The notes under the pieces: model-generated
Told to the model about the DNA's origin: nothing
Seen by the model: only the letters and a program-made list of their open reading frames with translations
The model's database searches: none
Source of the DNA: Candidatus Kryptobacter tengchongensis
GTDB taxonomy: Bacteria; Bacteroidota; Ignavibacteria; Kryptoniales; Kryptoniaceae
Length of the DNA: 64,000 nucleotides
Assembly: GCA_001485605.1 (NCBI GenBank)
Contig: FAON01000013.1
Span: 1 to 64,000 of the forward strand
Direction: 5' to 3'
Made by a program: the position numbers and the translations under genes
Shown here: in pieces, positions 1,078 through 6,250 of the stretch
How positions within the stretch are numbered: the stretch's first letter is position 1
Layout: each line of letters starts with the position of its first letter

Positions 1078-2718
1078 ATGGGAGGGCATAAAATATCTTG
1101 TTTAACTAAATTTACAATTTTTATTGTAATTGCAGTTGTTTTTCTTGAGAATTTTTCTTTCGCCCAATTTTCCGAGACCATCCCAACTGACTACTGGATT
1201 TACCACATTATTGAAGAACTTAAACTTCGTGGTTACTTTAGGGAGCTACCACAGGGGTATAAACCATATTCAAGGATTGAAATATCAAGGCATATAGTTA
1301 AGGAGAACACAAGGGTAAAGAATGATTTTGAAAGAAAGCTTTTCAAAATTCTTGAGGAAGAATTTAGAGATGAAATTGATTTTTTATACACGCAGGTACA
1401 ATCAAACTCAACTAACCTTTTGAGAGATACCGATGATTTTAAACTCAAAGCTGGTGTTATGCTTTCTGAATACGCTTGGCGTGATGGTTATTCAAATCGT
1501 CTTTTAAGGTTTAGGGGCAGAGCAAAATTTTCACTGTATTATAGTGATAAGTTTACACTTTATAATAATTCTCTAATGGATCAAAATTTGCTTGATGATA
1601 CAACTTACACTGGTAAGAAATGGCTCGGCTTTTTTGCTGGTTACACCGAGCAAGGTTATTTAAAATTAAATGTCGGACCTATGTCGGTTAAATTGGGGAG
1701 GGATTATATAAAGTGGGGATATGGAAAGGGCGGGAATTTGTTAATTTCGGATTACGCAATTCCATACGATATAATTCAAATTGATTTATTCTCCAAGAAA
1801 ATTAAATATAGCTGGTTTATCTCTCAACTTGATGATAGGATACCAGATAGTATTAAAGTACTAGAAACGGATAGATTTGATAACGTTGAAGTATTAAAAT
1901 CTCGTAGGTATCTGTCTGCCAATAGGTTGGAGATAAACTTATGGTGCAAGCTTTATTTAGGACTTGGGCAAGCTATTTTATATGGTGGAAATCACCGTAA
2001 TATTGATTTAACACTTTCAAATCCAATAGCATTTTTTTATGAATTTCAAATAAATGATGGAAAGGAATCAAATATATTTTTTTATGCTGATTTAACTTAT
2101 TATCCAATTCGAAATTTAAATTTGTATGCTGAATTTCTCATAGATGATTGGATGTACCAAAGAAAAATGAAACAGGAACTTGAACCCAATACATACGCGT
2201 TTCTAATTGGATTTAAAATTGGGGATATATTAAATATAATTGGTAGTGAATTAAATGCAGAGTATACTCAAATTAGAAATAGAACTTATAATCATGAATA
2301 TGATCACAATAAATATCTTCGTTTCAAAAGACCAATTGCTCATCCACTTGGGAACGATTTCCAAAGTTTTGAATTATGGCTAACGCAATGGGTTTTGAGG
2401 AAATTAAAATTAACTCTAAATTACAAATTTATTGAACACGGAGAAGGCTCAATTGAAAAACCTTGGGATGAGCCGTGGATGGCACCTGATATAACAGTTG
2501 AAACTGGATATAAAGAAAAATTTCCATATGGTGTGGTTGAAAGAACACATAGAATCGGGTTTGGTTTGTTTTATTATTTTAGCTCAAAATTAAATTTTAA
2601 TCTTGAGGTTTTTTATTCAGATATAAAAAATTATAAAAACATTGAGGGGTCTAAAAAGAAGTTATTCACATTTAAAGCCTGGTTATTTTTCAACTTTGAT
2701 AAAACAGTAGGGAGCTAA
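1078..2718 (+). CDS. Wzi-like outer-membrane beta-barrel (capsule assembly family)
   Basis: This 546-residue protein begins with a signal peptide (residues 1-29, hydrophobic core FTIFIVIAVVFL, likely cut after SFA). The mature start has TDYWIYHIIEELKLRGYF, a motif seen at the N-terminus of Wzi-type capsule-assembly proteins of this phylum. The rest alternates aromatic and polar residues as expected for an outer-membrane barrel, with the family-like patch KLGRDYIKWGYGKGGNLL near residue 206. Wzi-family proteins help attach or assemble surface polysaccharide, which fits the sugar-nucleotide genes downstream. The ATG has no clear Shine-Dalgarno site; it was chosen because it gives a complete signal peptide. 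It could instead be a general barrel of unknown role. Confidence 0.6.
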   Translation: MGGHKISCLTKFTIFIVIAVVFLENFSFAQFSETIPTDYWIYHIIEELKLRGYFRELPQGYKPYSRIEISRHIVKENTRVKNDFERKLFKILEEEFRDEIDFLYTQVQSNSTNLLRDTDDFKLKAGVMLSEYAWRDGYSNRLLRFRGRAKFSLYYSDKFTLYNNSLMDQNLLDDTTYTGKKWLGFFAGYTEQGYLKLNVGPMSVKLGRDYIKWGYGKGGNLLISDYAIPYDIIQIDLFSKKIKYSWFISQLDDRIPDSIKVLETDRFDNVEVLKSRRYLSANRLEINLWCKLYLGLGQAILYGGNHRNIDLTLSNPIAFFYEFQINDGKESNIFFYADLTYYPIRNLNLYAEFLIDDWMYQRKMKQELEPNTYAFLIGFKIGDILNIIGSELNAEYTQIRNRTYNHEYDHNKYLRFKRPIAHPLGNDFQSFELWLTQWVLRKLKLTLNYKFIEHGEGSIEKPWDEPWMAPDITVETGYKEKFPYGVVERTHRIGFGLFYYFSSKLNFNLEVFYSDIKNYKNIEGSKKKLFTFKAWLFFNFDKTVGS

Positions 2719-2758
2719 GAAATTCAAATCATTTGTCATCGCGTTTTGAGATTGCTTC

Positions 2759-2771
2759 GGGGCTTCGCCCC
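2759..2771 (+). other. GC-rich hairpin after the Wzi-like gene
   Basis: GGGGC-TTC-GCCCC forms a short perfect stem. It lies in a stretch resembling the common dispersed repeat with the core GAGATTGCTTCGG...CTCAATGACA. There is no T-run after it, so a terminator role is doubtful; it is more likely a fragment of a dispersed repeat. Confidence 0.4.
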
Positions 2772-2792
2772 TCAATGACAGGATGAAAGATT

Positions 2793-3503
2793 GACTCACC
2801 CCCTAACCCCTCTCTATAAAATAGAGAGGGGGAGAATTAAAAAGGGTAAGTTAATAAACGACTCACCCCCTAACCCCCTCTCTATTTATAGAGAGGGAGT
2901 ACTAAGGTGGTGAGTTAATGAATTGACTCACCCTCTAACCCCCTCTCTACAACTGTAGAGAGGGGGAACTTAAAGGGGGTGAGTAAAAAAATAAAAATTC
3001 CCCCGACATAATTACTTTGCGACTTCGTCGCTTCGCACCATGCAATAATTCAACCCCTGTTCCCTCTATACAATTTTAGAGAGGAAAACTAAAGAGGTGG
3101 ATTAATAAATTGACTCACCCCCTAACCCCCTCTCTAAAATTAGAGAGGGGGGAAATGAAAAGGGGGTGAGTTAATAAACTAACCCACCCCAACTCCCTCT
3201 CTAAAGTTAGAGAGAGGAGAATTAAGAGAGGTAAGTTAACAAACTAACTCACCCCCTACCTCCCTCTCTACAACTGTAGAGAGGGGGAACTTAAAGGGGG
3301 TGAGTTGAAAAACTGACCCACCCAACTCCCTCTTTAAAGTTAGAGAGAGGAGAATTAAGAGAGGTAAGTTAACAAGCTAACTCACCCTCTACCCCCCTCT
3401 CTACAACTGTAGAGAGGGGGAACTTAAAGGGGGTGAGTTGAAAAACTGACCTACCCCAACCCCCTCTCTAATTTAGAGAGGGGGAAGCAAGGGGGTGAGT
3501 TAA
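2793..3503. repeat. Array of about ten degenerate palindromic repeats between the Wzi-like gene and glmS
   Basis: About ten units of 55-70 bp follow one another. Each has the plan GACTCACCCCCTAACCCC, then CTCTCTA...TAGAGAGG, then a purine stretch ending GGGGGTGAGTTAA. The inner CCTCTCTA/TAGAGAGG arms form a hairpin, and the outer CTCACCCCC/GGGGGTGAG arms extend it, so each unit can fold as a long interrupted stem. Copies start near 2793, 2860, 2935, 3050, 3112, 3177, 3245, 3311, 3377 and 3444. Loop sequences differ (ATAAA, ATTTAT, CAACTG, AAAAT, AAAGT). A foreign patch at about 3000-3048 (GACTTCGTCGCTTCGC) interrupts the array. There are no open reading frames and no cas genes. This is most like a clustered REP/MITE-type element family. 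Confidence 0.85.
3177..3443. repeat. Two tandem copies of a 133-bp higher-order unit
   Basis: Inside the palindrome array, the pair of units 3177-3310 is repeated almost exactly at 3311-3443. Each consists of one unit with an AAAGT loop followed by one with a CAACTG loop. Spacing between equivalent bases is 133-134 bp, and a further partial copy begins at 3444. The duplication is recent compared with the divergence among single units, pointing to expansion by unequal crossover or slippage of a two-unit block. Confidence 0.75.
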
Positions 3504-3538
3504 CAAGATAAATCTAAAATAAAAAAAGGTTTAAAGTT

Positions 3539-5398
3539 ATGTGCGGTATTGTTGGTTATATCGGGAAGAGAAATATCTTTGAAGTTCTTATAAGTGGGTT
3601 GAAAAGACTTGAATACAGGGGATATGATTCAGCAGGCATCGCCATATTATCCGACGATGTTTTTATTCTAAAGAGAGCTGGAAAAGTTTCAAGACTTGAA
3701 AACGAACTTCAAAATTTTGCACCTATTGTAAATTCAACTTCGTTTTCTTTATCTGTAGGTATAGCTCACACGAGATGGGCAACACATGGTGAGCCAAGCG
3801 ATATAAATGCACACCCTTTAACCGATTGCACAGGTAAATTTGCGGTTGTTCATAACGGAATAATTGAAAATTATCAAATCTTAAAGAAAAAACTTGAATC
3901 GCTTGGACATATCTTCAAAAGTCAAACTGATACTGAAGTAATTTCTCATTTGATAGAGGAATTTTATAAAAACACAAAAGATTTCACAACATCTGTTCAA
4001 CTTGCTCTTAATCATATTGAAGGAACATATGGGCTTGGGATAGTCTGTGCGCATGAGCCTGAAAAAATAATTGTTGCAAGAAAAGGAAGTCCGATAATAA
4101 TTGGCTTGGGTGATGGGGAGTATATAGCAGCTTCAGACCCCTCAGCTATTGTTGCTTTAACAAGAAATGTAATTTTTCTTGAGGATGGTGAAATTGGGAT
4201 AATATCACCTGATGGTGTTGAGGTAAGGAAGATACATTCTGATGAAAAATTGGATCTTGATAGCAGAATTCACGAATTAGCGCTTAGTTTAGATGAAATA
4301 GAAAAAGGTGGTTTTCCACATTTTATGCTTAAGGAAATCTTTGAACAGCCTGAGTCTTTGCTTAATTCAATGCGTGGCAGGATAAATGAAAAAGGCGAAG
4401 TAAAGCTCGGGGGAATCGCTGATTTTATGGATAAAATTTTAAATGCGAGAAGATTTATAATCACAGCATGTGGCACAAGTTGGCATGCTGGACTTGTTGG
4501 AAAATACATGCTTGAACAATATGCCGAAATACCCGTTGATGTTGAATATGCTTCGGAGTTTAGATATAGAAATCCAGTGATATTTCCAGATGATGTTGTG
4601 TGGTTGATAAGTCAAAGTGGTGAAACCGCAGATACTCTTGCTGCATTGCGACTTGCTAAGGCGAAGGGAGCAACTGTTCTTGGAATCGTAAATGTGGTTG
4701 GTTCAACAATTGCAAGAGAAAGCCATGCTGGAGTTTATATCCATGCCGGACCTGAAATTGGGGTTGCATCAACAAAAGCTTTTACAAGTCAGCTTGTTGT
4801 GCTTAGTTTAATTACGCTGTTGCTTGGAAGAGAAAAAGGGAAAATATCTCCCGAACTCGCATCTGAGATAGCAAGGGAATTGATTTCAATTCCTGAAAAA
4901 GTTAAAAAAATTCTTGAATTAAATGATCACATAAAAGCGCTTGCAGAAAAATATAAAGACCATCATAACTTTCTATATCTTGGGCGTGGGTTTAATTATC
5001 CAGTTGCGCTTGAGGGCGCCCTGAAACTAAAAGAAATTTCTTATATCCATGCAGAAGGTTATCCAGCAGCTGAAATGAAACATGGACCAATTGCTTTGAT
5101 TGATGAAAATATGCCTGTTGTTTTTATCGCTGTTAAAGATGGTGTTTACGAAAAAGTCCTAAGCAATATGGAAGAAGTTAAAGCAAGAAAGGGAAAAATA
5201 ATTTCAATTGTTACTGAACTTGATGATAAAGTAGCGAAATTATCTGATCACACCATTCAAATTCCACAAACATTTGATATGTTGATGCCGATTCTCTCTG
5301 TGATACCATTGCAGTTGCTTGCTTATCACATCGCTGTTATGCGTGGGTGTGATGTTGATCAGCCGAGAAATCTTGCAAAAAGCGTAACGGTGGAATAG
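3539..5398 (+). CDS. glmS: Glutamine-fructose-6-phosphate aminotransferase (isomerizing)
   Basis: GlmS makes glucosamine-6-phosphate from fructose-6-phosphate and glutamine, the entry step to UDP-GlcNAc for peptidoglycan and surface glycans. The 619-residue length is standard. Residue 2 is the catalytic Cys (MCGIVGYIG) of the N-terminal glutamine amidohydrolase domain. Two SIS domains follow, with ITACGTSWHAG near residue 308, SQSGETADT near 360 and STKAFTSQ in the first, and the conserved end DQPRNLAKSVTVE. The start is fixed because Cys must be residue 2. The region upstream is the palindromic array; I found no glmS-ribozyme-like sequence there. It stands ahead of the sugar-nucleotide genes. 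Confidence 0.97.
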   Translation: MCGIVGYIGKRNIFEVLISGLKRLEYRGYDSAGIAILSDDVFILKRAGKVSRLENELQNFAPIVNSTSFSLSVGIAHTRWATHGEPSDINAHPLTDCTGKFAVVHNGIIENYQILKKKLESLGHIFKSQTDTEVISHLIEEFYKNTKDFTTSVQLALNHIEGTYGLGIVCAHEPEKIIVARKGSPIIIGLGDGEYIAASDPSAIVALTRNVIFLEDGEIGIISPDGVEVRKIHSDEKLDLDSRIHELALSLDEIEKGGFPHFMLKEIFEQPESLLNSMRGRINEKGEVKLGGIADFMDKILNARRFIITACGTSWHAGLVGKYMLEQYAEIPVDVEYASEFRYRNPVIFPDDVVWLISQSGETADTLAALRLAKAKGATVLGIVNVVGSTIARESHAGVYIHAGPEIGVASTKAFTSQLVVLSLITLLLGREKGKISPELASEIARELISIPEKVKKILELNDHIKALAEKYKDHHNFLYLGRGFNYPVALEGALKLKEISYIHAEGYPAAEMKHGPIALIDENMPVVFIAVKDGVYEKVLSNMEEVKARKGKIISIVTELDDKVAKLSDHTIQIPQTFDMLMPILSVIPLQLLAYHIAVMRGCDVDQPRNLAKSVTVE

Positions 5399-5526: not shown

Positions 5527-5931
5527 ATGAATAGGTGGAAAGATTGGTATGATCAAGCGAAAAGGGATATTGAGAGAGCCAGAATTGATATTGATTTTAA
5601 ATTTTATGAGTGGGCTTGTTTTACAGCACAACAATCCGCTGAAAAAGCGGTAAAGGCGCTCGCTTTGAAAATCGGTTTAAATTTATGGGGACATTCCATA
5701 TTTGAAATGATAAAAATTTTATCTGGAAAGATTGAAATTCCTGAAAAAATAGGTGAATACGCAAAATTGCTTGATCTATACTATATACCGCCAAGATATC
5801 CTAATGGGTTTGCTTCAGGTAAACCAGCTGATTACTTCACGGAAAAACAAGCATTGGAGGCATTAGATGCGGCAAGTAATATCATCAAGTTCTGTGAAGG
5901 GATTTTATTTAAAGAGGGAGGAGATACTTAA
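5527..5931 (+). CDS. HEPN-domain protein
   Basis: A 134-residue all-alpha HEPN-family protein (PF05168-like). The recognisable features are the N-terminal WKDWYDQAKRDIERA helix, FYEWACFTAQQSAEKAVKAL, the GHSI turn, and a C-terminal YPNGFASGKPADYF segment of the ARYP type. HEPN proteins pair with minimal nucleotidyltransferases (MNT), often as toxin-antitoxin or nucleotide-modifying pairs. I do not see a clean R-X4-6-H ribonuclease motif, so toxicity cannot be assumed. The gene overlaps the MNT gene by 65 bp, showing a single transcriptional unit. No clear ribosome site precedes the ATG. Confidence 0.8.
   Translation: MNRWKDWYDQAKRDIERARIDIDFKFYEWACFTAQQSAEKAVKALALKIGLNLWGHSIFEMIKILSGKIEIPEKIGEYAKLLDLYYIPPRYPNGFASGKPADYFTEKQALEALDAASNIIKFCEGILFKEGGDT
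5856..5860 (+). promoter_or_regulatory. Shine-Dalgarno site that sets the MNT start inside the HEPN gene
   Basis: GGAGG lies six bases before ATG 5867. The next in-frame candidate, GTG 5894, has no such site. This supports the long 65-bp overlap and translational coupling of the HEPN and MNT genes. Confidence 0.6.
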
Positions 5932-6250
5932 AACAGTTGAAGAGATATCAAAAACTGCTATGGATTTATTCCCAGAAATAGATGAGATAAGAATTTTCGG
6001 TTCATTTGCAAAGAAGCAGGAGACAGGGTTAAGTGATATTGACATTTTCGTATTGTTAAGTGATACTGGAAGCGAAAACCCGATTGAAAGATGTAAAAAG
6101 TATTTCTATTTTTTCGCAGATAATCTTGATATTGCAGTTGATGTTATAGTCGCTGGAGAAAACGAAATTGAGAGTTTTAGGAATTTAATAAACGAAAGTA
6201 TTTTGGTCGTAAAAAGAACCCCAAAAACAAATCAAAATAAATCTGCTTAA
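5867..6250 (+). CDS. MNT-type nucleotidyltransferase, partner of the HEPN protein
   Basis: A 127-residue nucleotidyltransferase of the minimal (MNT) family. The polymerase-beta-like motif IFGSFAKKQETGLSDIDIFV (G-S-x-A...S-D-I-D) starts near residue 43, with the two metal-binding Asp in SDID. In characterised HEPN/MNT pairs the MNT component modifies or neutralises the HEPN partner; whether that holds here is inference. The ATG at 5867 overlaps the HEPN gene and has GGAGG six bases upstream; homologues usually begin near the LKREEIL helix, so the first ~15 residues may be an extension. The UDP-glucose dehydrogenase gene starts three bases after the stop. Confidence 0.8.
   Translation: MRQVISSSSVKGFYLKREEILKTVEEISKTAMDLFPEIDEIRIFGSFAKKQETGLSDIDIFVLLSDTGSENPIERCKKYFYFFADNLDIAVDVIVAGENEIESFRNLINESILVVKRTPKTNQNKSA

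Follow-up and report, generated by a model that had tools for sequence, protein, structure and literature searches.

What does a run of ten palindromic repeats do directly ahead of glmS, and how did it come to be there? The window considered here (the whole stretch of DNA that was analysed, i.e. positions 1 to 64,000 of contig FAON01000013.1 of Candidatus Kryptobacter tengchongensis) contains ten units of 65-70 nt each, which stand head to tail at 2790-3506 between a Wzi-like gene and glmS. It is probable that this array consists of tandem, triplex-capable repeats of the BoxC/PIT kind, in which the triplex is maintained and which were copied into the locus, and that it is not a dedicated regulator of glmS. 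The features on which the argument draws are the following.

1078-2718, plus strand: upstream gene, capsule assembly protein Wzi family (PF14052)
2790-2856, plus strand: unit 1, with leader CTCACCCCC, loop TAA and hairpin; 3' third strand decayed; class II motif on the minus strand
2857-2921, plus strand: unit 2, with leader, hairpin and 3' third strand; class II motif on the minus strand, and on the plus strand only with a second loop of up to 12
2856-3190, plus strand: block of 335 bp matching the array at C4:3504-3838 (another contig of this genome), 94.3% identical over 336 columns
2922-2988, plus strand: unit 3, both strands carry a class II motif
2989-3045, plus strand: remnant of a second repeat (ACTTCGTCGCTTCGC), nested between units 3 and 4
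3046-3108, plus strand: unit 4, degenerate (start placed at about 3044-3049); fold not significant, triplex motif absent
3109-3176, plus strand: unit 5, the best kept; 11-nt stem; class II motif on the minus strand, and on the plus strand with an 8-nt loop
3177-3242, plus strand: unit 6, outer arms degenerate
3188-3453, plus strand: 133-bp tandem duplication, 3188-3320 versus 3321-3453, 96% identical
3243-3308, plus strand: unit 7, class II motif on the minus strand, and on the plus strand with an 8-nt loop
3309-3375, plus strand: unit 8, degenerate copy of unit 6
3376-3441, plus strand: unit 9, copy of unit 7; both strands carry a class II motif
3442-3506, plus strand: unit 10, class II motif on the plus strand (array end approximate)
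3539-5398, plus strand: glmS (SIS and GATase domains), starting about 33 nt past the array end

The ten-unit array that the initial annotation had described upstream of glmS is real, with six unit-head matches observed in the window versus 0.10 expected. Its description of copies 6-7 and 8-9 as a recent tandem duplication was equally correct, the 133-bp duplication implying that units 6-7 became 8-9, and the other repeat family that it placed near 3000-3048 was recovered at 2989-3045. Just 3' of glmS (window positions 5527-6250), a HEPN domain gene is followed by an overlapping nucleotidyltransferase (MNT) gene, i.e. a HEPN/MNT pair of the toxin-antitoxin type.

Read on the C-rich strand, a unit comprises the leader CTCACCCCC, the loop TAA, the arm CCCCCTCTCTA, a loop, the arm TAGAGAGGGGG, a spacer and the trailer GGGGGTGAG. 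The leader is approximately the mirror image of the hairpin arm, and the opposite strand therefore reads GGGGGTGAG behind a TTA loop; judging from the letters, this stretch could occupy the hairpin groove in antiparallel orientation, forming the triplets G.GC, T.AT and A.AT. The trailer would be an equivalent potential third strand on the other strand, and with leader and trailer each able to take this part, well-kept units are therefore double-sided. A Y arm, an R arm and a third strand follow each other on one strand, with GGC, AAT or TAT triplets, as in a class II intrastrand triplex. Inner and outer arms had both been reported as kept, which is right for the inner stem (intact in nine of the ten units, decayed in unit 4) and wrong for the outer arms, exact copies of which are confined to some units: CTCACCCCC to units 1, 2, 5 and 7, and GGGGGTGAG to units 3, 5, 7, 9 and 10, units 4, 6 and 8 being degenerate. 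Three folds of two well-kept units gave z values of -6.5, -5.8 and -6.1 relative to shuffles, compared to -2.6 for unit 6 (weakly better than shuffles) and -0.2 for unit 4.

With our own triplex finder (stem of at least 8, at most one mismatch, first loop of at most 8, for which PMC4666352 allows 6, and second loop of at most 6), six class II motifs were found on the minus strand of the array and three on the plus strand, with stems of 10-11; relaxing the second loop to 12 gave six plus-strand motifs with stems of 9-12. Under the relaxed setting, a motif is present on at least one strand in seven of the ten units (1, 2, 3, 5, 7, 9 and 10) and in none of units 4, 6 and 8, from which it follows that the constraint is loose within the array. 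All class II motifs of the 64-kb window with 10-11-nt stems fall inside the array, the three further matches outside it being rich in A/T and having stems of 8 nt. Across 100 shuffles of the array region, the mean was 0.01 motifs and the maximum one, and shuffles of the whole window (n = 5) contained 0-5.

That the palindrome is a dispersed element, as had also been proposed, is borne out by a genome-wide count. A profile of the ten units, run on the contig stretches examined, returned at least 24 arrays with 131 units, of 1-13 units each and with a single direction within most arrays, while the 2.68-Mb genome as a whole contains 69 copies of the inner palindrome (reversed control: 0). The location is predominantly intergenic, 21 of the 24 arrays overlapping no ORF of at least 90 aa and the other three overlapping one each (91, 100 and 131 aa). 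Three of the 24 arrays are at contig ends; contigs C5 (at its end), C10 (at its start) and C15 (at its end) break in or beside arrays, and true array lengths may therefore be greater, copy numbers in the assembly probably being underestimates.

The arrays also appear to travel in pieces larger than a unit. All four near-exact copies of the nested sequence in this genome stand in or adjoin arrays of the element, and it therefore appears that whole blocks have been copied; the block common to 2856-3190 and C4:3504-3838 carries the nested repeat at an equal position. The remnant recurs between units on C4, with diverged forms on C9, C5 and at C4:2264. Pieces of the second family (GAGATTGCTTC, CTTCGTCGCTTCGC and GCAATGACA) are found at 2738-2785 and 2989-3045 of the window and in arrays on C4, C5, C9, C10, C11, C12 and C14. 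With the second family lying between the units of many arrays, these are therefore mosaics of two families.

Beyond this genome, the exact palindrome was present in 10 of the 61 genomes searched (the source genome counted). The exact 19-nt head CTCACCCCCTAACCCCCTC was found in at least 119 stretches of genome_contigs, with about 2 to 10 expected by chance (estimated from base composition), and among the matches listed these span about 18 phylum-level groups, as assigned from record titles with the names grouped by us. The groups include Chloroflexota, Cyanobacteria, Bacteroidota, Planctomycetota and Spirochaetota, as well as Armatimonadota, Gemmatimonadota, Peribacteria, Zixibacteria and Proteobacteria; many of the sources are metagenome bins, and some are isolates (Herpetosiphon, Hymenobacter, Oscillatoria, Zavarzinella). 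Among the matches listed, a matching 3' arm follows in 106 of 120 cores with enough downstream sequence (14 being without a good one), and a trailer-like run is also present in 6 of the 120. A relaxed pattern found copies in all 22 sampled head-bearing genomes, at 1 to 32 places each (reversed control: 0), and a scan of 395 genomes of the phylum found the element in 21 (reversed control: 2). The longest run of hairpins in 274 foreign loci, two of which actually derive from this genome, was four, versus 13 units here. The class of matches 'inside ORF' (130/413) rests on crude ORF calls and was not relied on. In a Flammeovirgaceae bin (L141, ~3329-3428), leader and arm are repeated alone with a 40-nt period before one complete hairpin.

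These copies allow leader and arm to be compared across elements, as only the head is prescribed by the scan patterns, which place no condition on the bases that precede the leader or follow the arm; in the relaxed pattern, neither C-run is prescribed. The C-run of the leader equals that of the arm in 113 of 115 distinct elements, among the viral-contig matches listed and those of the phylum (shuffles: mean 63.5, maximum 80), a set that leaves out our own genome (two loci) and seven loci pre-selected by the exact 5-C pattern. Among the matches listed in this set, the arm has a C in all 73 elements whose second base ahead of the leader is C; position 1, which hardly varies there, gives 105 of 113 versus 104.2 in shuffles, which is not significant. 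In the 19-mer set, i.e. 114 elements left from 129 copies after dropping 7 without TC behind the head and 8 duplicates, triplet-compatible combinations among the matches listed amount to 110 at position 1 (95.8 shuffled), 38 at position 2 (19.8) and 30 at position 3 (17.2). With a single element per genome (86, among the matches listed), the values become 82 versus 68.3 at position 1 and 29 versus 15.0 at position 2, position 3 no longer being significant (14 versus 11.2), and mutual information peaks in register at positions 1 and 2. An A in the leader paired with a T in the arm (eight elements, position 1 of the 19-mer set) is compatible with T.AT as a purine-motif triplet and incompatible with the pyrimidine motif.

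Shared descent of a few subfamilies inflates such shuffle tests; the one-per-genome test and a comparison within genomes, which removes the founding of subfamilies, hold still. Within eight foreign genomes, C-runs are equal in 91 of 98 elements (shuffles: mean 71.0, maximum 84) and within this genome in 45 of 61 (mean 32.9, maximum 43), the equality within genomes exceeding all 20,000 shuffles in a test that left out interrupted runs, unlisted rows and genomes without variation. From this covariation of leader and arm we therefore infer that the triplex itself is maintained. The constraint on pairing suggested by the initial annotation is thereby supported and is in fact wider than was claimed, the third strand covarying with the hairpin.

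A simpler account, which we consider unlikely, is that of plain hairpin or cruciform repeats amplified by slippage, the likeness of leader and arm stemming from a shared C-rich origin. Watson-Crick pairing of the inner and outer arms alone does fold well, and the loss of the outer arms in several units would be in line with such an account. However, this pairing does not tie the leader C-run or the flanks to the arm, and yet covariation is seen, also within genomes, of which a hairpin alone predicts none. In addition, a mirror-image leader and arm would be kept equal neither by direct-repeat nor by inverted-repeat conversion.

The position of the array, ending so shortly before glmS and running in the same direction, raises the possibility that it acts as a structured leader or attenuator, with a comb of transcript hairpins controlling glmS. 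Folding is strong in every good unit, and a search of 2650-3600 found no sigma-70-like promoter, so read-through transcription of the array is possible. Nevertheless, this reading is quite improbable in view of the relatives, in which an ortholog of the Wzi-like gene directly precedes glmS: at two loci of G001 and in G003 and G006, ~17-42 nt separate this gene from glmS and the array is absent, and it is likewise absent in G002, where a different gene precedes glmS (G004 and G005 yielded no full glmS for comparison). Given these empty sites, this lineage is the only one among the genomes examined to have the array at glmS. In these relatives, all of the same genus, the exact palindrome itself occurs 10 times in G001, 26 times in G002 and not in G003-G006. 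Nor do the arrays keep to one orientation to their neighbours: seen along the array, the 21 arrays flanked on both sides lie between genes that converge (8), both run forward (6), both run in reverse (5) or diverge (2), as classified from crude ORF calls. For the E. coli relative of the element, the available text of Holder et al. (2015, PMC4666352) reports that it showed neither promoter nor terminator activity. The leader role first suggested for the array is consequently not supported, and its position is all that speaks for a regulatory role at glmS. A conserved glmS leader was rejected on the absence of the array at this gene pair in relatives, as was a glmS riboswitch, the site being empty in relatives and an Rfam search of the array matching no family. 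G001 has full-length glmS twice (L038 and L043; 88% and 72% identity to the gene of the window), each time behind a Wzi-like homolog.

The element demonstrably spreads, and a REP/REPIN family mobilised by a RAYT (Y1_Tnp) would be the familiar explanation for short extragenic palindromes in many copies, the more so as Y1_Tnp matches occur in 18 of 22 foreign element-bearing genomes and once in this genome. Even so, we regard it as very unlikely. The sole Y1 gene of this genome lies in a 6.5-kb locus without any unit, and is associated with a different repeat (L015, G000:C14:122300-123300): several copies of other palindromes (CGCAGGCTAAAGCCTGCG and GCACCCTTTAGGGTGCG), of GTAG type and REP-like, flank it, and together they likely form a classical REP/RAYT pair. 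Across 40 Y1 loci (10 in relatives of the class and 30 in element-bearing genomes), an element core was found within 1.5 kb of the Y1 gene in one, where the gene is a 988-aa frame and no RAYT, and G001 and G002 carry the palindrome without a Y1_Tnp match. The link to a REP-associated transposase (TnpA-REP) that had been envisaged is thus not supported, and RAYT was rejected as the mover. Fourteen ORFs are bracketed by two elements; Pfam searches of six of these returned ordinary enzymes and surface or transport proteins, and no transposase. At two E. coli sites, tauD-hemB and yjdP-phnP (MG1655 and seven further strains), the differences are internal deletions, at least one of them between direct repeats, and one replacement; a clean insertion or target duplication was not seen at these two sites.

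Dispersed G-quadruplex or i-motif elements, suggested by the G5 and C5 runs that every well-kept unit contains, are hardly credible, as there are two G-runs per strand and unit, the match of leader and arm is not predicted, and, for the E. coli relative, the available text of PMC4666352 reports that NMR ruled out a quadruplex.

The reading that remains preferred is therefore that of tandem triplex-capable repeats. In this scenario, the G-rich strand would fold back into a class II (purine-motif, reverse-Hoogsteen) triplex, and copies able to do so would be the ones that multiply or persist, possibly through recognition by some factor or through events at stalled replication forks. The same fold could drive slippage and unequal recombination, by which arrays would be both made and broken. 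Such copying would have brought the array, in this lineage, to its place between the wzi-like gene and glmS, and it would not be a dedicated regulator of glmS. It is possible, although doubtful, that a factor present across many bacterial phyla recognises the three-stranded fold and copies or protects the element, in which case the third strand would be selected everywhere, this lineage would have an amplified, double-sided form whose arrays lengthen, shorten and travel as blocks, and arrays could tune neighbours such as glmS by copy number. Seen in distant bacteria as well as inside single genomes, the covariation of the third strand provides comparative evidence for conservation of the triplex in addition to that of the hairpin.

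As far as searched, the new features are a unit that is double-sided and lengthened, long arrays running head to tail, a wide distribution and the covariation. The terms covariation, Chloroflexi and Bacteroidetes are absent from the available text of PMC4666352; a literature search, with most subscription journals outside its reach, found no later paper on third-strand covariation, and a literature sequence search found no paper printing CTCACCCCCTAACCCC.

With respect to known systems, the element resembles MITEs in being a small, non-coding inverted repeat that spreads in a genome, and may differ from them, as neither a transposase whose ends match nor a target-site duplication was found, the empty glmS sites of relatives being too diverged to fix an insertion junction. 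With REP, BIME and REPIN sequences (GTAG/CGTC-tagged repeats, as described in the available part of PMC3733652) it shares short, clustered, intergenic palindromes; unlike these, it has a third strand and neither a GTAG or CGTC foot tag nor an adjoining RAYT, the hairpin foot reading TAA, TGA, TG or TGT in most units instead of a GTAG-like tetranucleotide.

Its closest counterpart is the BoxC/PIT element or TM_ECO of E. coli and other Proteobacteria, for which we rely on the available text of Holder et al. (2015, PMC4666352) throughout. The E. coli member forms a stable triplex in vitro by CD and NMR, which in vivo DMS footprinting did not show, and BoxC-type repeats have been unexplained since the 1990s, with no function or mover shown. 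The order of pyrimidine arm, purine arm, TTA-type loop and reverse-Hoogsteen arm is common to both, as are the intergenic location, a copy number that varies sharply among close relatives and the lack of an adjacent transposase. The arms in the window, CCCCCTCTCTA and TAGAGAGGGGG, do not match the strict TM_ECO consensus, CCCTCNCCC N3-6 GGGNGAGGG N3 GGGNGAGGG, and the element is therefore not TM_ECO in the strict sense; only membership of the wider kind is claimed. Compared to the 9-nt stems with C3/G3 of TM_ECO, the stems of the array are longer (10-11, with C5/G5) and have T-A pairs close to the hairpin loop; well-kept units have a two-sided third strand, and the element occurs in head-to-tail runs of up to 13 units and far outside the Proteobacteria. 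These double-sided tandem arrays are a strong test object for BoxC-type repeats.
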